This document shows positions 9,722 through 18,381 of a DNA stretch of 64,000 nucleotides, in pieces; position 1 is the stretch's first letter, and every line of letters starts with the position of its first letter. Made by a program: the position numbers and the translations under genes. This stretch comes from Pirellulales bacterium (GTDB lineage: Bacteria > Planctomycetota > Planctomycetia > Pirellulales > JAEUIK01). The stretch is taken from contig JAIBBZ010000014.1 of NCBI GenBank assembly GCA_019694435.1, positions 62,001-126,000 of the forward strand. The letters run 5' to 3'. The notes beneath the pieces are model-generated. The model did no database searches. It was not told where the DNA came from and saw only the letters and a program-made list of their open reading frames with translations.

Positions 9722-10978
9722 CTACATCCGGTCCGGCGACCACTGCGGTTTGCGCCGCGATGGCGCCGCGTCGGCGGGCGTTTCACCTTCGTGGTCGAGT
9801 TCGCCCTCGTGCACCACCTCGCCATCGACGGCGTGATCGCCCTCGATGTGTTCTTCCACGATGAACTCTTGGTCGGCGCCCGCGCCGATCGGGTAGGGCA
9901 CGCGTTCGACACGCGCAGTTCGCGCGGTCGGCGGTTCGCTCCGCGGCTGGCCTAGCGCAGGCTGGCCGGTCACGACCTGTGGCGCCCGTCCGCGCAGGGC
10001 GCCCCACGCTTCGCCGTAGCGCTGCGCGGCGCGGCCGGTCGGCGCGGTGTGCGGCCGTGAGGGGTCGCGAACGGCTTGTTGCGGCGGCAGGGGATCGATT
10101 TGAATCTGCCGCTCGGCGAGCAGCTTGCGGCCGTCGTCCGTCTGATAACGGACATACAGGTTCAACGTGCGACCCACGGGCGGCTCAGCGGGCCAGGGCA
10201 GCTCGACGTGAATGCCCTTGCCGACGATCGATTGCCGGAAGCGGTCGGCCGTCTCGCTCATCGTAAAATCCCACCGCGCGACGCGCGACGCGGGACCGCT
10301 CCGCGAGGGGTCGGTCAAGACGACGCTCACCTCGCCGGGAACTTCGAGAATCTGACCGGCTTTGTTGCGCGGCTCGATGACGACCATGATCCCCTCGTCG
10401 CCCGGATGGCCGTCGCGATTGTGCCCGCCGGTCAGCTGCCGGTTCAGCGTGATCTCGTGCACCTGCCAGTCGGTGATCTCGGCTTCGTCCTGCCGCGGTG
10501 TCAGGCTGACCTGCGGGGCGCGCACGCCCCCCCTGGGGGATCGCTGATGGTGCCTTGCCGACGGCGGGTCGGGCAGCCGCTCGTCCGGTGCTCCCGGCGG
10601 GACATAGGGCGGAGCATCTTCGGTCCCGTTCGGCGGATAAGTCTCGCTGGGGACGCTGGGTGGGCTCAACGATGGCGCGGACCCCTGGGGAATCTCGATG
10701 CTGGGCGGTGCGCCGCCGGGGGCAGAGTCGTCCGCGGGAACCGCCTCGTCGCCGCCGCGCGTACCGAGCTGCTGGCGCAGCGCTGCATTCTCGCGGCGGC
10801 ACGATTCGAGCCTCGCCTCGGATTCCGACAGCTCGTCTTCGAGCATGCCGACTTCGTCTTCCCACATCCGCAGCTCGCTGTAGAGCTGATCGTGGACGGC
10901 CGTCTGGGCCCGGTTGTTACGGCAACCGGTTGCCAGCGCCAGCAGCACGAGGACCAACAGGCCGCTTGTCTTGTTCAT
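9722..10978 (-). CDS. predicted lipoprotein with coiled coil
   Basis: A 418-residue protein beginning MNKTSGLLVLVLLALATGC: a lipoprotein signal peptide with lipobox LATGC (Cys19). The frame continues upstream to 11140 but that extension is Ala/Arg-rich and lacks a signal. Residues 27-60 form a short coiled coil (YSELRMWEDEVGMLEDELSE, then ESCRRENAALRQQ), followed by a Pro/Ser-rich linker. A beta-rich middle domain has VVIEPRNKAGQILEVPGEV and a matching LNLYVRYQTDDGRKLLAERQ. The tail is basic then acidic. I do not recognise the family. The lipid anchor and coiled coil suggest an envelope structural or scaffold role. Confidence 0.7.
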   Translation of the reverse strand: MNKTSGLLVLVLLALATGCRNNRAQTAVHDQLYSELRMWEDEVGMLEDELSESEARLESCRRENAALRQQLGTRGGDEAVPADDSAPGGAPPSIEIPQGSAPSLSPPSVPSETYPPNGTEDAPPYVPPGAPDERLPDPPSARHHQRSPRGGVRAPQVSLTPRQDEAEITDWQVHEITLNRQLTGGHNRDGHPGDEGIMVVIEPRNKAGQILEVPGEVSVVLTDPSRSGPASRVARWDFTMSETADRFRQSIVGKGIHVELPWPAEPPVGRTLNLYVRYQTDDGRKLLAERQIQIDPLPPQQAVRDPSRPHTAPTGRAAQRYGEAWGALRGRAPQVVTGQPALGQPRSEPPTARTARVERVPYPIGAGADQEFIVEEHIEGDHAVDGEVVHEGELDHEGETPADAAPSRRKPQWSPDRM

Positions 10979-11310
10979 CGCCGCCTCGCAGGCGTCGAAC
11001 GCCAGCCACCGCGCGCACGCGCTTGCGAGCGCAGCGGGCTGCCATCGACGCGATCGGGATTTTGCCAGTGGGACATGACCGCTGGGCAAGGCTGCGGCGC
11101 GCTGGGCACCGCGCGGCCGAGTCGTGTGCGAGCCGCACACTTCGCGAGCGCTTCCTTGCTCTGTTGCTACCGAGGGGTCTCGGGGGCTTCCGTGCTGTCT
11201 GGGAGCGAACGAACGTTCGCGTTTTAGGGACGAGCTACTGACTTATCTGCGCCGCATGCATCCTGCACGCGGGCTGCTAGCGGTGGTCATCGCGCCGAGC
11301 CGCGGCTCGC
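10979..11310. other. intergenic region, 332 bases, no gene
   Basis: Lies between the 3' end of a ClpP gene and the start of the lipoprotein gene, all on the minus strand. It must contain the promoter of the lipoprotein, but I see no consensus pair. A 6-bp hairpin GCGAAC/GTTCGC with a 4-base loop lies at 11205-11220 and is followed by GTTTT on the plus strand; no plus-strand gene ends there, so it is not called a terminator. Confidence 0.4.
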
Positions 11311-11913
11311 TCAGCCGGCGGCGGGCTTGGTTTCGATGTGGTCGATCACTCGGTCGATCAGGCCATACTCTAGCGCTTCCTCCGCCTCCATAAACCGGTC
11401 GCGATCGGTATCTTCCTCGATCTTCGACAGCGACTGGCCCGTATGCTTGAGCAGGATGTTGTTGAGCCGCTGCTTGACCTTCTTGAATTCCTTGGCGTGA
11501 ATCATGATCTCTTCGGCAGTGCCTTCCATGCCGGCCAGCGGCTGATGGATCATGATCCGCGAGCTGGGCAGGGCGTGACGCTTGCCGCGGCTGCCGGCGG
11601 CCAAGAGCACGGCCCCCATCGAAGCGCACTGCCCGATGCAATAGGTGGCCACGTCGCAATTGATGAACTGCATCGTGTCGTAAATTGCCAACCCGGCGGT
11701 GACGCTGCCACCCGGCGAGTTGATGTACAGGTGGACGTCCGCCTTGGCGTCCTCGGCCTGCAGAAACAACAACTGCGCCACGATCAGGTTGGCGATCTCG
11801 TCGTTGATCGCCGTGCCCAGGAAGATGATGCGGTCTTTCAGCAGCCGGCTGTAGATGTCCATGGCCCGCTCTTCGCGGCCAGTCTTCTCGATCACAAAGG
11901 GGATCAGAGCCAT
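11311..11913 (-). CDS. clpP: ATP-dependent Clp protease proteolytic subunit
   Basis: A 200-residue serine protease subunit of normal ClpP length. The catalytic triad is complete: Ser98 in [12 protein letters not shown], His123 in MIHQPLAG and Asp172 in DTDRDRFM. The oligomerisation and substrate-binding motif YINSPGGSV is present. It would form tetradecamers working with ClpX or ClpA/C, neither of which is encoded in this window. It is the second of two adjacent clpP genes, 70 bases after the other, in the order tig, clpP, clpP. The paralogues differ clearly at the N-terminus and around the active serine, so they may form a mixed ClpP1P2 complex as in some other bacteria; that is inference. 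Confidence 0.95.
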
Positions 11914-11983: not shown

Positions 11984-12637
11984 TTATTCTTCCTCTTCGC
12001 TGCCCGGCGGGCGCGTGATGATTTCGTCGACGAGGCCGTATTCCTTCGCTTCGGCGGCGTTCATGTAGCGGTCGCGGTCGGTGTCCCGGGCGATCCGCTC
12101 CTTGGGTTGGCCCGTATGGTTGGCCAGGATCGTGTTCAGCACGTCGCGGGTCTTGAGAATCTCGTCGGCCTGAATTTCGATGTCCGACACCTGCCCGCCG
12201 ACCTGGCCGTAGGGCTGGTGGATCATGACCTTCGAATGGGGCAGGGCGTAGCGTTTGCCCTTGGTGCCGCCGGCCAGCAGGACGGCGCCTCCGCTGGCCG
12301 CGAGGCCCACGCAGTAGGTCGCCACAGGGCAGCTGACCATTTGCATGGTGTCGTAGATGGCCAGCGTCGCCGTGACGCTACCGCCGGGCGAGTTGATGTA
12401 GAAATGGATGTCCTTGCGGCGGTTTTCGCTTTGCAAGTAGAGCAGCTTCATCACGACCTCGTTGGCCGTGAGATCGTGGATTTCGCTCTGCAGGAAGACG
12501 ATGCGGTTTTCCAGCAGCAGGTCGCCGAGCGTCATCGTCCGCTGCCGCTGATAATCGCGGTAAGCGGCCGAAGGACTCATCGCGCGCGGATCAATCAATC
12601 CCCGGCGCTCGAACCACGCGTCTGACGCGTTCCCCAT
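11984..12637 (-). CDS. clpP: ATP-dependent Clp protease proteolytic subunit, second paralogue
   Basis: A 217-residue ClpP with a longer N-terminus (about 35 residues before the core) than its neighbour. The triad is present: Ser115 in [14 protein letters not shown], His140 in MIHQPYG and Asp189 in DTDRDRYM. The residue after the active Ser is Gly where most ClpPs have Met (ASMG). The C-terminus is acidic (PPGSEEEE). ATG 12637 is preceded by AAGGATT at good distance. The upstream trigger factor gene is on the same strand, matching the common tig-clpP arrangement that couples folding and degradation of nascent or misfolded proteins. Confidence 0.95.
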
Positions 12638-12826: not shown

Positions 12827-14362
12827 TTATTCGCGTTCCGGACGTGTCCGGAGCGGCTCGGCTATGCCGCTTTCCTGGGCCTCGGGAATGACTTCCTCGT
12901 CCCCCCCGCCTGCCGACTGGTCCAAGGCCTCGGAATCGGCCGTGGGCAGCTCGAAAGGCACGTCCTTGAAAGCGGCCTCCTGCAGGATCATCTCGATGAC
13001 TTTGCGCTCGATGATCTGATTCCGCAAAATGTCCATCATGCCCCGCTTCTCGAGCTGAGCACGCGTCCGCCGGGGGCTTTCGCCGCTCTGGCTGGCGATC
13101 ATTTCGATTTCGCGGTCGTAATCGCCCGGCACGTCTTCGACCTGCTCTTCTTCGGCAATCCGTTCGAGGATGAAGTGCTCTTTGAGCATCTTGGCCGTGC
13201 GCTGCAGGCTGTTCTGCCGCAATTCGTTCTGATGCGCCTGGATCTCGCGGTCGGTGAACCCGTTGCGACGCAATTCGAGCACCATCCGCTGCATTTCGCG
13301 TTCGGTCTGCCGCTTGAGCAACTCGGGGGGCAATTCCCAGTCGGCCGCCACGGTCAACGCGGCGAGCACTTGTTCGCGGGCACGCTGTTGCTGGGCATAT
13401 TCGATTTGCCGCTGGAGATCCTGGCCGATCCGGCCGCGGAACTCCTCCTCGGTCGAACAATCGAACGTGTCGAGCAGGGCCGGCGTGATCTCCGGCAGTT
13501 CCAGCGACTTGACCTCGAGGACGTCGAACACGGCCGTGACTTTTTCGCCACGCAGCTTTTCGTTGGGGGCGTCCTGCGCGATCGGCATTTCGGCCGTACG
13601 CGTTTCGCCGGCCTGCACGCCCTTCATCAGCTTGTCGAATTTTTCGATCCGGCCGTCACGGAAACTGAGCACCGGCCGAATGCGGATAACTTCCTCGTCG
13701 CTCGACGACAAGACTTCGTCGCCGTGCTTGAAAGTGAGCCGCGTGGCGATGTAGTCGCCCACGGCCGCCGCACCGTCCTTGGGCACCAGCCGAGCGCGGG
13801 AGGTGAGCACCTCCTGCATCCGCCGGTCGATGTCGGCATCGCTGATCTCGCGCACCGGGCGCTCAATCTTCAGCCCCTTCCAGTTCGGCACGGTGAACTC
13901 GGGACGGACTTCGAGATCGAATTCGAAGGTCATCGGACCTTCTTCCGGGATCTCGATCACCAGGGGGTCGAAGTCGGGCTCGCTGATCGCGGCCAGATTG
14001 TGTTCCTCGGTCACCTGGCCGAGGCTGTCCATCAACAGCGAACCCTTGACCTGATCGGCGACGTCCTTGCGGAAGCGCTGCTCGACCAGCCTGCGCGGCG
14101 CGCGGCCGGCGCGGAAGCCGGGCACCAGCGCCGTTTGACGCAACTCGCCAAAAGCGCGATCGAGATAGCGATCGACGTCTTCGCGCGACACCGTCACGGT
14201 AATATGACGCTGGCACGCCCCGCGGGCGTCGATCTTTACGTCGAGCGACAGCTTTTCCGGTTCGGCGTTTTCCGATTCGGCGCCATCTTCTGACTGAGCG
14301 CTGTCGGCCAGATCTTCGAGATCGTTTTCGCGGTCGTCGTTGTCTTCGTCACTGCGGGCCAT
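12827..14362 (-). CDS. tig: trigger factor
   Basis: A ribosome-associated chaperone and peptidyl-prolyl isomerase of 511 residues, somewhat longer than the usual 430-450. The first about 37 residues are a very acidic extension (MARSDEDNDDRENDLEDLAD). The ribosome-docking signature GFRAGRAPRRLV follows at residues 82-93. The FKBP-like domain is recognisable near AAAVGDYIATRLTF, and the helical C-terminal arms continue to an acidic tail. The open frame extends to 14587, through the tRNA-Gly gene, and so cannot be real there. ATG 14362 is chosen because the protein then begins directly before the acidic segment. It heads the tig-clpP-clpP group. Confidence 0.93.
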   Translation of the reverse strand: MARSDEDNDDRENDLEDLADSAQSEDGAESENAEPEKLSLDVKIDARGACQRHITVTVSREDVDRYLDRAFGELRQTALVPGFRAGRAPRRLVEQRFRKDVADQVKGSLLMDSLGQVTEEHNLAAISEPDFDPLVIEIPEEGPMTFEFDLEVRPEFTVPNWKGLKIERPVREISDADIDRRMQEVLTSRARLVPKDGAAAVGDYIATRLTFKHGDEVLSSSDEEVIRIRPVLSFRDGRIEKFDKLMKGVQAGETRTAEMPIAQDAPNEKLRGEKVTAVFDVLEVKSLELPEITPALLDTFDCSTEEEFRGRIGQDLQRQIEYAQQQRAREQVLAALTVAADWELPPELLKRQTEREMQRMVLELRRNGFTDREIQAHQNELRQNSLQRTAKMLKEHFILERIAEEEQVEDVPGDYDREIEMIASQSGESPRRTRAQLEKRGMMDILRNQIIERKVIEMILQEAAFKDVPFELPTADSEALDQSAGGGDEEVIPEAQESGIAEPLRTRPERE

Positions 14363-14545
14363 GGCCGTCTCGATCCTGAGCAAACTAGTCCTGGAAGTGA
14401 TGAAACCGGCCACGGCGTCCTGCGCCGCGTACGAACGTGCATTCCATGCGAGTGCCTGGGCAGGTGAGTCGCTGGACGCACAGCGCGTTTTGGCGGCCGT
14501 GACGGTCTCCCGACGTCCGGACCCTCCCTGGTCGTACGACGTGAA

Positions 14546-14618
14546 AGCGGGTGATGGGATTCGAACCCACGACAACGACGTTGGCAACGTCGTGCTCTAC
14601 CAACTGAGCTACACCCGC
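14546..14618 (-). tRNA. tRNA-Gly (anticodon GCC)
   Basis: Read on the minus strand it folds into a complete cloverleaf: acceptor GCGGGTG/CACCCGC, D arm GCTC...GAGC, anticodon stem CGACG/CGTCG with loop TTGCCAA (anticodon GCC), a 5-base variable loop and T arm GTGGG-TTCGAAT-CCCAT. The discriminator is U, as expected for glycine tRNA. The 3' CCA is not encoded. It lies about 180 bases upstream of trigger factor on the same strand. Confidence 0.97.
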
Positions 14619-15033: not shown

Positions 15034-18000
15034 ATGGATGTGAAACTCCTGCTGATCGAAGGTCGCGCAAGCCGCAAGCAGATCAAGCTGCGGCTGCCCG
15101 CCAGCGTGGGCCGTGCTGCCGACCAATGGCTGCGGATCGACCATCGCAGCGTAAGCCGCCAGCATTGCGAGCTGTTCGAGCGCGACGGCACGCTGTTCGT
15201 CCGCGATTGCGGTTCGGCCAACGGCACGCTGGTCGACGACCGCCCCGTCCAAGAGGAGGCGATCGAACCAGGCCAGCGTCTGACGGTGGGTCCCCTGGTG
15301 TTCGAGGTGATGTACGAGCGTGTCAACGGGGTGGACAACCACCCCCTGCCTGCGGCCGACGCCGCGGCCACGCTCGCTGTTGAGGCCGCGCCCACAGTTG
15401 CCGCCGACGAGCCTTCCGAGGCCGAAGCGGCCATGGTCGTGTCCGACGAAGATTCGCTCGACTTCGACCTGGCGCCAGCCGAACACGCCGAACTGGAAAT
15501 CACTCCGGACGCTCCCGGATCGTTGCCGGGAGACGATGAACCGCTGGACTTCGAGCACGACGAGCCCGTCGCTATGGCCGCGGCCGCGGAGCCGACCGTA
15601 GACGAGCCAATGTTCGCGGCCGAGCCGGTTGGCGAATTCGAGTCAATCGAGTTGGCGGAAGTTCCGCTGGCCGAACCGGCGGGCGAGCTCGACTTTGACT
15701 TGCAGGAAGAGCTGCAAGCGAGCGATCTAGAACCGCCGGCCCCCGCAGCGCCGGCTGCGGAAGAAGTCGATCTAGTCGACTCGGTGGGCGAGCTGTTGGC
15801 GCCGGCTGTCGACGAGCCCTCGGAAGAAGAGTTCGAGCCGCTCGAACTGCTCGACGAGGCGGCCAGCGCTGGATTTGCCGTCGCAGAGGGCGAGCTTGCG
15901 CCCGAGGCTCCGGAAGCAGCCGACGTGATCGACTTCGGCTTCGAGGATGCGGCCCCGGCCAAGGTTGCCGCGCCGGAGTCAGAAGCGCCGGTTGCATTCG
16001 AGCCGGCGGCCGAGATGGACGACGACGACGCTCAGGCAGCTTCGGCCGACGCACCCCTCGAAGATTTGGTCTCGGACGAGGACCGGATGTTCTCGTTCGA
16101 TGCCTCCGAGGAATTGGACCGAGGCGACGAGCCGCGCGACGCACGCGACTGGGACGAGCCGTCGGCCGAGATCTTTCCGCTCGCCGACGATCAGCCGGCG
16201 GTACCGGCCAGCGCCGTCAACGATTTCGATGAAGCCCCCACGCCGCTTTCAGACGTTCTGGACGAGCCGCTGCTGGAGGTAGCGTCGGAGCCCGAAGCGG
16301 CCTCGGCCAACGATGCGCTGGCGGATGCCGGGCTCACCGTCAAAGACTCCGCGCCGACCGAGATTGGACCCGAAGCGAAGTACATTTCGATCGACGATCA
16401 TGCCCCGGTCACGGACGAAGACGATTTCATCTTCGAAGGCATCGATCTTGAAGAGCCGAGCGACGGACCTGCAACGCGCGCCGATGAAGGCGTCGACGAA
16501 TTGGCCGTCGCAGATATCAGTTTCGAAGATGAGCCGGCCACCGAACAGCCGGTAGCCGATGAACTCGGCGCCGATTGGGGCCGCACCGAACCCTGGACTG
16601 GCGACGCGACCGTCGCCAGCGGGCCGGTGGAATCGACCGGCGGTACCGTGCCGGTCGACACGCTCGACGACGACCTCTCGTTCGAGTCGCTCGGTGCCGA
16701 CGTGGTTCAACGCGCCGAGGCTGACGAACCACCTGCCTCGGCACCGACCCCGGCGAACATTTCCGAGGACGATGCCCTCGCGTTTCTCGACGATGATGCC
16801 CCGGCCGCCGCACCGGCGTCTGCCGAGGCGGTCGACGAGTCTGCGCCGGCTGCGGACGAGGATGAGTCGTTCTTCGTCGATCTCGATCCGCCGGCCGCGA
16901 CGGCCGAAGAGGTCGAGGTAGAGCCGGGCGAGTTCGAGGCCTTCGACGCAGAGCCCGCGCCGCTCGACATCCCGGCTGCGGCGGCCGACGAAGCGGCCGA
17001 ACTTGATTTTCAAGACCTGTCCTTCGACGAGACGTCGGCGACGCCTGCCCCGGCGGAGATGGCCCTACCCGGCGAGGAACTCTTCGATCCGAGCGCAGGG
17101 GCCGTCGCCGATGCCAACGTCATCGAGGCGGATGCCAAGACGCAAGGAGCCGCGCGGCGCGGTTGGTGGCCATTCGGGCGCAGCACCAAACCGTCCAAAC
17201 CAACGAAACCAGCCAAGCCGGCGGCGAAAAAACCGCCCGCGAAAGCCAAGTCTCCCCAGCCCGCGCCAACGGCGAAAAAGTCGAGTTTCTGGGGACGTGG
17301 CAAGGCCACAGCGAACGAAGCCAAGGCCGAAGTCGAATTGCCGGTTGAACCGTCGGTCGAAGCGATCGACGATTCGCCCGCCGTCGAGACCGGCAATCCG
17401 TTTGCGACGGGCCATGTGCTCGAGCCGCTCGAACTGCAACAGCCCGACGAGGCTGTGCTCGAATTCATCGCCGACGAGCCGGTGCCCGACGGCGTGACCG
17501 AGCTGGCACCCTCGCAGGAGACCGTGCGCGCAGCGGACGACTTCGTACTGGGCTCCGGCCCGGACGCGAACGCGAAAGCCGAAGAGATCGATTTCGATTT
17601 CGATGCCATCGACGATGCACCCACGGCGCTGGCCAGCGAATCCGAGCTGGCGTTGCCGGAGCCCGAAGCGGAACTCTCCGCGGTAGAATTCGACGCCGAC
17701 AGCGCGCCGCTCGAAGAGCACTTCGAGCTGAGCGAGTCGCCGACGCGTCCGGTTGCCTCGGCCGAAGTCGAGTTTGCCGCCGACGATGACGCAGTCGAAG
17801 CGATCGATGCCTCGTCGGGTTCCTTGCCGGAGCTTGCTGCGGCACCCGGCGCAGATGCGACCGACATCGAACTCGATTTCAGCGACGACTACTCTATGGT
17901 CGGCTCGCCCGACGAGCTGGCCGTCTCGCCGCCGCCTGCCGAGGCCGCAGAGGCACCCGCAGGCAAGTCGGGAAAGAAGGTTAAAAAGGTCAAGGCCACC

Positions 18001-18381
18001 AAGCCACCGAAGCCTGCCAAGGCACCTAAAGCACCGAAGCCCGCCCAGCCGAAGCGAAGCTGGTGGCCCTTTGGACGCAAAGCGAAGCCCAGTGAGGCCG
18101 CGGCCGGTGCAGCGGCTGTACCGTCGCCCGAGGCGGATCTCCCGCAAGTCGATCCGATCGACCAGTCAGGATTCGATCGTGAGGTGAGCTTCGAGGCGGC
18201 GGAAATGCCCGACGCGATTGAAATGCCCGCGGAACTCGACGCCGCCGAGCCAGGCTTCGAGCTACCGATCGAATTCGAAGAGCAGCCCGATGCCACGTCG
18301 GCTCCCAAAGCCGCCGAGGCGGCCGCGTCCGATGAAGATGAGGACGAGGACCTGCAGGAGTTTCTACGCGGGTTGCGGTAG
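15034..18381 (+). CDS. FHA-domain protein with a very long acidic disordered region
   Basis: A 1115-residue protein. Residues 1-95 form an FHA phosphothreonine-binding domain: GR at 26-27, SRQH at 41-44 and NGT at 63-65, the canonical contact residues. The remaining about 1000 residues are low-complexity, rich in Asp, Glu, Ala and Pro, with recurring short units such as DELD, FDFDA and DLSFE. Two basic Lys/Pro-rich islands interrupt the acid, each associated with an aromatic motif: WWPFGR at 711-716 (with SFWGRG at 751-756) and WWPFGR at 1010-1015. The C-terminus is DEDEDEDLQEFLRGLR. ATG 15034 starts directly before the FHA domain; the frame stays open upstream to 14878 without support. Probably a phospho-dependent scaffold; partners are unknown. 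Confidence 0.8.
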   Translation: MDVKLLLIEGRASRKQIKLRLPASVGRAADQWLRIDHRSVSRQHCELFERDGTLFVRDCGSANGTLVDDRPVQEEAIEPGQRLTVGPLVFEVMYERVNGVDNHPLPAADAAATLAVEAAPTVAADEPSEAEAAMVVSDEDSLDFDLAPAEHAELEITPDAPGSLPGDDEPLDFEHDEPVAMAAAAEPTVDEPMFAAEPVGEFESIELAEVPLAEPAGELDFDLQEELQASDLEPPAPAAPAAEEVDLVDSVGELLAPAVDEPSEEEFEPLELLDEAASAGFAVAEGELAPEAPEAADVIDFGFEDAAPAKVAAPESEAPVAFEPAAEMDDDDAQAASADAPLEDLVSDEDRMFSFDASEELDRGDEPRDARDWDEPSAEIFPLADDQPAVPASAVNDFDEAPTPLSDVLDEPLLEVASEPEAASANDALADAGLTVKDSAPTEIGPEAKYISIDDHAPVTDEDDFIFEGIDLEEPSDGPATRADEGVDELAVADISFEDEPATEQPVADELGADWGRTEPWTGDATVASGPVESTGGTVPVDTLDDDLSFESLGADVVQRAEADEPPASAPTPANISEDDALAFLDDDAPAAAPASAEAVDESAPAADEDESFFVDLDPPAATAEEVEVEPGEFEAFDAEPAPLDIPAAAADEAAELDFQDLSFDETSATPAPAEMALPGEELFDPSAGAVADANVIEADAKTQGAARRGWWPFGRSTKPSKPTKPAKPAAKKPPAKAKSPQPAPTAKKSSFWGRGKATANEAKAEVELPVEPSVEAIDDSPAVETGNPFATGHVLEPLELQQPDEAVLEFIADEPVPDGVTELAPSQETVRAADDFVLGSGPDANAKAEEIDFDFDAIDDAPTALASESELALPEPEAELSAVEFDADSAPLEEHFELSESPTRPVASAEVEFAADDDAVEAIDASSGSLPELAAAPGADATDIELDFSDDYSMVGSPDELAVSPPPAEAAEAPAGKSGKKVKKVKATKPPKPAKAPKAPKPAQPKRSWWPFGRKAKPSEAAAGAAAVPSPEADLPQVDPIDQSGFDREVSFEAAEMPDAIEMPAELDAAEPGFELPIEFEEQPDATSAPKAAEAAASDEDEDEDLQEFLRGLR

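Follow-up and report, generated by a model that had tools for sequence, protein, structure and literature searches.

The FHA-domain gene in a 64,000-nucleotide stretch of DNA from a Pirellulales bacterium (this whole stretch, as analysed here, is called the window) raises the question of what two identical copies of the hexapeptide WWPFGR do in the acidic tail of its product. According to the original prediction, the islands that carry them form a binding or membrane-contact module held on a phospho-binding scaffold. The features of the gene are as follows.

15034..18381, plus strand: gene of the FHA-domain protein, 1115 aa (open reading frame and translation)
15103..15291, plus strand: FHA domain, residues 24-86 (Pfam and a nine-sequence alignment)
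15334..18378, plus strand: acidic low-complexity tail, residues 101-1115, net charge -211
17134..17319, plus strand: basic island 1, residues 701-762, holding WWPFGR and SFWGRG
17164..17181, plus strand: WWPFGR copy 1, residues 711-716 (codon-pattern search, translation)
17284..17301, plus strand: SFWGRG, residues 751-756, with Trp 753 (translation)
17962..18096, plus strand: basic island 2, residues 977-1021 (translation, composition)
18061..18078, plus strand: WWPFGR copy 2, residues 1010-1015 (codon-pattern search, translation)
18352..18378, plus strand: C-terminal motif LQEFLRGLR, residues 1107-1115 (conservation; predicted helix 1103-1114)

The product is an FHA-domain protein by profile and by contact residues. 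PF00498 matched residues 24-86 with 53 bits (cut-off 20.7; E 4.7e-14), and G26 R27, S41 R42 x H44 and S61 x N63 G64 T65 are present. In the nine-sequence alignment, G26, R27, S41, R42, S61, N63, G64 and T65 were invariant, and H44 varied; G26, R27, S41 and N63 are the residues that we take to contact phosphothreonine. The domain would bind phosphothreonine on a kinase or on a kinase substrate. PF16697, the cytoplasmic domain of the type III secretion protein YscD, matched the same stretch with 38 bits (cut-off 33.2). The domain belongs to an inner-membrane protein of type III secretion, and we read this match as the FHA fold. The nearest named models include FhaB, OdhI and GltG, all far under their cut-offs: for the whole protein and for residues 1-99, respectively, the FhaB/FipA model NF049868 gave 44.5 and 50.4 bits (cut-off 125), the GarA/OdhI model NF041660 gave 29 and 34.4 bits (cut-off 200) and the GltG model NF033760 gave 44.1 and 33.3 bits (cut-off 650). 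GarA and TB39.8 were the nearest solved structures.

The surroundings of the gene contain the following features.

11311-11913: second clpP copy (clustering only)
11984..12637, minus strand: clpP, in a tig-clpP-clpP cluster (Pfam)
12827..14587, minus strand: trigger factor (tig), divergent neighbour (Pfam; open reading frame as listed)
14546-14618, minus strand: tRNA-Gly (gcc), between tig and the FHA gene (ARAGORN)

The true start of tig probably lies further in than that of the listed frame. The FHA gene is divergent from tig and both clpP genes, and therefore an operon link is not supported; since trigger factor and ClpP are housekeeping proteins, no function was inferred from these neighbours. 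Genes of the tig type occurred in 21 of 53 stretches compared (the window included; many stretches are short), and in 10 of the 53 the FHA gene adjoined a gene that we take to be DUF255-like. The neighbourhood, whether tig-clpP-clpP or the DUF255-like gene, was thus set aside as a functional clue, as no clear functional link emerged. The gene after clpP (9722-11140, minus strand) has a lipoprotein-like start by eye and belongs to a family found in 11 of the 53 stretches; it had no NCBIfam match. PADLOC gave no match. ARAGORN also called a tRNA-Ala (ggc) at 15766-15852 on the plus strand, inside the FHA coding frame; the call is probably fortuitous, the coding DNA here being GC-rich.

Translation and residue counts bore out the structural part of the original prediction, namely two WWPFGR copies (711-716 and 1010-1015), SFWGRG between them and an acidic chain ending in LQEFLRGLR. 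The tail has a high content of Asp, Glu, Ala and Pro; it contains 140 Glu and 121 Asp against 32 Lys and 18 Arg (net -211, or -210 counted from residue 106), and its charge is strongly blocked. An AlphaFold single-sequence model was poor (mean pLDDT 33.9); in this low-confidence model the tail had neither helix nor strand except at its C-terminal end, where its only helix, residues 1103-1114 at a pLDDT of about 55, is alone of mild interest. Each WWPFGR copy sits inside a Lys/Arg/Pro island, and from the tail composition the hexapeptide is expected 2.4e-7 times. Further, five of the eight Trp residues of the tail fall within the 127 island residues of 1015 (P 0.0012; the borders of the islands were set with the sequence in view). 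Codon choice differs between the two copies for Pro (CCA/CCC), Phe (TTC/TTT) and Gly (GGG/GGA), and their flanking DNA is unlike by eye; a recent duplication is therefore unlikely. When the WWPFGR codon pattern was searched in the genome of this bacterium (6.13 Mb, 90 contigs, 97.9% complete), as the original prediction had proposed, there were two matches, both in the window gene, and none in the control. A literature search for 'WWPFGR' found no paper, and a 31-residue peptide from an island, searched against the PDB with E values up to 10 admitted, gave two matches that were not meaningful (best E 0.28).

Relatives of the window protein appear, from homology searches, to be widespread in Pirellulales. 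The full protein matched in 57 of 57 genomes (its own and 56 relatives) at E 0.001, other FHA proteins included, and a profile of nine N-terminal domains matched in 379 of 396 genomes of the order at E 1e-15, paralogues included. Across the phylum at E 1e-20, 10 of 246 genomes matched (its own, two others of the order and seven from outside it), and one further listed genome of the order had no match at this threshold. A scan of named genomes gave nine loci, mostly in assemblies titled Pirellulales, Pirellulaceae, Thermoguttaceae, Blastopirellula or Rhodopirellula, and one each titled Planctomycetia, Planctomycetaceae and Proteobacteria. Among the literature matches listed that pair the FHA domain with Planctomycetes, as far as the records describe them, none was evidently on this family.

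For comparison we took the best domain from each of 112 stretches picked from the top of the rankings and added the window protein, giving 113 sequences, of which four are cut by a contig or stretch end and 109 are uncut. L060-L065, L077 and L078, which are paralogues or different FHA proteins, were excluded beforehand, as were loci L080-L100. The sample is non-random, with near-duplicates (L112/L113 and L043/L044) and one genome represented twice (L051 and L110); some low-scoring rows may be paralogues, and orthology is not to be read row by row. The linker between the FHA domain and the C-terminal motif ranged from tens to about 1600 residues. The tail of one relative, L110 (G010), ends in SPRKK-type tandem repeats. 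Separately, a paralogous short FHA protein (L060:7196-8125; relatives L061-L064 and L077) closes with a conserved basic motif of the LRKFFNRR type; it occurs in the own genome, where it adjoins glycine-cleavage-like genes by eye, and in five genomes of the same family.

The original prediction regarded homologues with no conserved WWPFGR as evidence against it, and this is in part what we found. A WWPF-type motif, defined as [WFML]WPF or WWK, occurred in 16 of the 113 sequences and was absent from 97, yet five of the six members of family f1 (the window protein included) have one, as do both members of f14 and nine of the 40 of f17. On a tree of poor resolution, at least seven changes are needed to account for this distribution. 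The context was net-positive for all 21 occurrences, often in the form [KR][KR][GS]WWPFG[RK]. A pattern of WWPFG plus K/R, searched in 296 genomes of the order, gave 51 matches in 43 genomes, below the reversed-pattern control (at least 53), and most of the 29 loci read were short or non-coding-looking frames by eye; the counts were therefore taken from FHA relatives only. At L185:307-1950, a protein of another family that by eye is PAS-GGDEF-like contains KKTKKKWWPFGRKASR after the GGDEF-like region, which places the same basic module, WWPFGR, in a signalling protein that is unrelated. By eye, L187 and L198 seem to be secreted proteins; WWPFG lies shortly behind a signal-peptide-like stretch in L187 and at the C-terminus in L198.

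The motif itself recalls the alphaproteobacterial RNase E GWW motif, which docks in a pocket of PNPase: the RNase E peptide EKPRRGWWRR resembles ARRGWWPFGR (PMC3376730), in both cases with Trp flanked by Arg or Lys, and the own genome has PNPase. The islands might thus be sequence-specific protein docking sites, and five f17 sequences (L069, L115, L119, L120 and L140) have the WWPF-type motif plus Arg/Lys as their very C-terminus, as a terminal docking peptide would. However, in copy 2 a Ser takes the place of the Gly that precedes WW, elsewhere this position holds S, M, R or K, and Met, Leu or Phe replaces the first Trp in the motifs of L043, L044, L144 and L042; in Caulobacter, by contrast, replacing either Trp with Ala severely disrupted PNPase binding (PMC3376730). 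Identity with the PNPase-binding motif was rejected because relatives do not preserve this Gly or the first Trp; the RNase E motif is a PNPase ligand, and no homology is claimed. An RGWW-type pattern gave no signal in the own genome (12 matches vs 15 in controls). Sequence-specific docking also has to contend with family f12, which has amphipathic segments in place of the motif, and we consider it unlikely.

What recurs is a broader property. We defined an island by a favourable Wimley-White sum over 13 residues together with a net charge of at least +4 over 31, a criterion set after looking at the sequences, and called the tails of sequences of at least 380 aa long. Such a basic-hydrophobic island was present in 16 of 23 long tails, compared with 0.7% of shuffled tails, and absent by this criterion from the other seven. 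Among uncut shorter sequences it was found in seven of 88 (0.5% of shuffles), all seven of them WWPF-type, and not in the remaining 81. In an earlier, simpler test, the single most interfacial nine-residue window lay in a net-positive context in 11 of the 23 long tails vs 1% of shuffles. G006, the sixth f1 member, in which WWPF is absent, has islands holding LFGFLSLKRK and FWQRLIAALKIKSRPRK, and in six of the seven f12 members the islands are basic amphipathic segments such as KKGFFAKLFGGLGKSK, FIDQLKKLFGLGGKKK or the LFGGSKK type. Thus, in these sequences exact WWPFGR is lineage-limited, and what most long tails have in common is the basic-hydrophobic patch; the islands are therefore likelier to be generic basic-aromatic anchors than sequence-specific sites. 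Accordingly, the idea of a binding or membrane-contact module gains from the recurrence of islands, but the exact hexapeptide proposed for it is not family-wide.

Two further accounts of the islands draw on the composition of the tail. The pattern [LIV]xF[DE] occurs 11 times, compared with a mean of 1.55 and a maximum of seven in 500 shuffles, and the basic-aromatic islands might act as condensate stickers that cross-link these acidic-aromatic segments of the same or other tails, in the manner of a block polyampholyte. Condensate formation by the tail is plausible given this enrichment and the strong charge blocking. As the explanation of the islands, however, it is improbable in our view: by the criterion, islands are missing from seven of the 23 long tails and from 81 of the 88 short ones, and it is compatible with membrane binding and so is not an exclusive alternative. 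The Lys/Pro composition of segments such as KPTKPAKPAAKKPPAKAK resembles that of histone H1 tails, and the islands could bind DNA or RNA in that way with Trp stacking on bases. This is distinctly unlikely, as the element recurring across families is a hydrophobic core beside basic residues and not a Lys/Pro run alone.

The C-terminal end of the window protein is DEDEDEDLQEFLRGLR (translation of 15034-18381, plus strand), and its last nine residues, LQEFLRGLR, mentioned only in passing in the original prediction, belong to the better conserved element. A pattern written after seeing the ends (hydrophobic-x-x-[FYLIW]-hydrophobic-x-x-hydrophobic within the last 16 residues) was present in 80 of the 109 uncut sequences. 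Shuffled ends carried it in 1.3% of cases, and other tail windows in 17 of 1745; DQNLNDFLKNL is the consensus of the profile. The pattern was absent from 29 sequences: five of these finish in the WWPF motif, L040, L043, L044 and L175 end in related sequences that escaped it, and the rest have no such end. In the own genome, the degenerate pattern occurred in three places vs six in controls, and the two outside the gene had no in-frame stop. Internal matches to the motif were found in some long tails, mainly of f12 (17 at score 8; full shuffles gave 2.3 and local ones 5.7). By eye, a few of these matches are unconvincing; the window protein has the terminal match only. Internal LDDFLxDL-type matches within long acidic tails, seen in L102, L103, L104, L105, L106 and L041, suggest multivalency. 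Among the sequences compared, LQEFLRGLR is better conserved than WWPFGR, and the C-terminal helix probably docks a partner protein. Thus, the eye-catching repeat is lineage-limited and the plain C-terminal nonapeptide is the conserved part.

We tentatively favour, at slightly less than an even chance, the reading that the window protein is a membrane-tethered phosphothreonine-binding scaffold, with islands that would act like the membrane-binding motifs of the E. coli FtsY A-domain and a putative docking helix at its end. The FHA domain would bind phosphothreonine of a kinase or its substrate, and the long acidic disordered chain would be a spacer held off the anionic membrane except at the basic islands. 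There, Trp and Phe of WWPFGR would insert at the lipid interface, the flanking Lys and Arg would bind anionic lipid, and two islands would provide avidity. The C-terminal amphipathic helix, LxxFLxxL, would be a docking peptide for a conserved putative partner, so that the FHA domain and the helix form two client-binding ends, and phosphorylated clients and the partner would be held together at the inner face of the membrane. We infer lipid binding, phosphothreonine binding and partner docking from the sequence features and the conservation described above. Against membrane tethering, the most interfacial window lies in an acidic context in 12 of the 23 long tails, and seven of the 23 are islandless. 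Membrane contact is not a universal function of the family, since the WWPF-type motif is missing from 97 of 113 sequences and an island from 81 of 88 short ones; nor is WWPFG specific to the cytosolic face, since in L187, a protein of the order, it follows the signal-peptide-like stretch (by eye). The window protein would be a variant of an FHA scaffold, and the analysis defines a widespread scaffold family with two putative modules, basic-hydrophobic islands that change form and a conserved C-terminal docking motif. Given the reported absence of FtsZ, a conserved, putatively phospho-dependent scaffold may offer a concrete handle on planctomycete cell biology.

The C-terminal motif may be compared with the FtsZ C-terminal tail, DYLDIPAFLRKQAD (PMC4117426). 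Like that tail, it is a short hydrophobic docking peptide, here a putative one, that ends a disordered linker with [LI]xxFL[RK] spacing; unlike the DIPxFLR-type peptide of FtsZ, it has no Pro. The FtsZ tail was a weak match to the C-terminal profile: 64 of 5207 ordinary background windows scored as high or higher, and the likeness is therefore only a lead. It is intriguing because planctomycetes are reported to be without FtsZ (PMC5147048) and because FtsZ_C had no match in the own genome, with matches in 13 of 14 control genomes. FtsA had only a sub-cut-off match there (39.5 vs 175.85 bits). It is a long shot that, in a lineage for which the absence of FtsZ is reported, the family forms a phospho-controlled membrane hub, with a long disordered linker closing in an FtsZ-tail-like docking helix and with basic-aromatic islands as membrane tethers, which would organise division or envelope machinery where other bacteria use interactions of FtsZ-type tails.

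FhaB/FipA, GarA/OdhI and GltG share the FHA domain with the window protein, but GarA and OdhI are short proteins without such a tail, as judged by chain length. Membrane tethering by two islands is favoured because of two other parallels. Tritrpticin, VRRFPWWWPFLRR, is described as a membrane-active peptide with a WWPF core plus Arg (PMC4790384); it shares Trp flanked by Arg or Lys with the islands but is an antimicrobial peptide, and no homology is claimed. For the A-domain of E. coli FtsY, an acidic chain of low conservation, more than one membrane-binding motif is described: one lipid-binding motif occupies the extreme N-terminus (first 14 residues) and another the boundary to the following domain, and the acidity of the A-domain is considered to repel the membrane (PMC5533587). 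When the interfacial score used for the tails was applied to the first 240 residues of E. coli K-12 FtsY, MAKEKKRGFFSWLGF ranked first. FtsY is a GTPase, whereas the window protein has an FHA domain and no SRP GTPase (NG) domain, its Pfam matches being FHA-type only. Both have an acidic, poorly conserved chain with separate motifs, of which the islands would be the counterparts; at the level of sequence, the window protein carries basic-aromatic segments in an acidic disordered chain, as in the FtsY-type motif.
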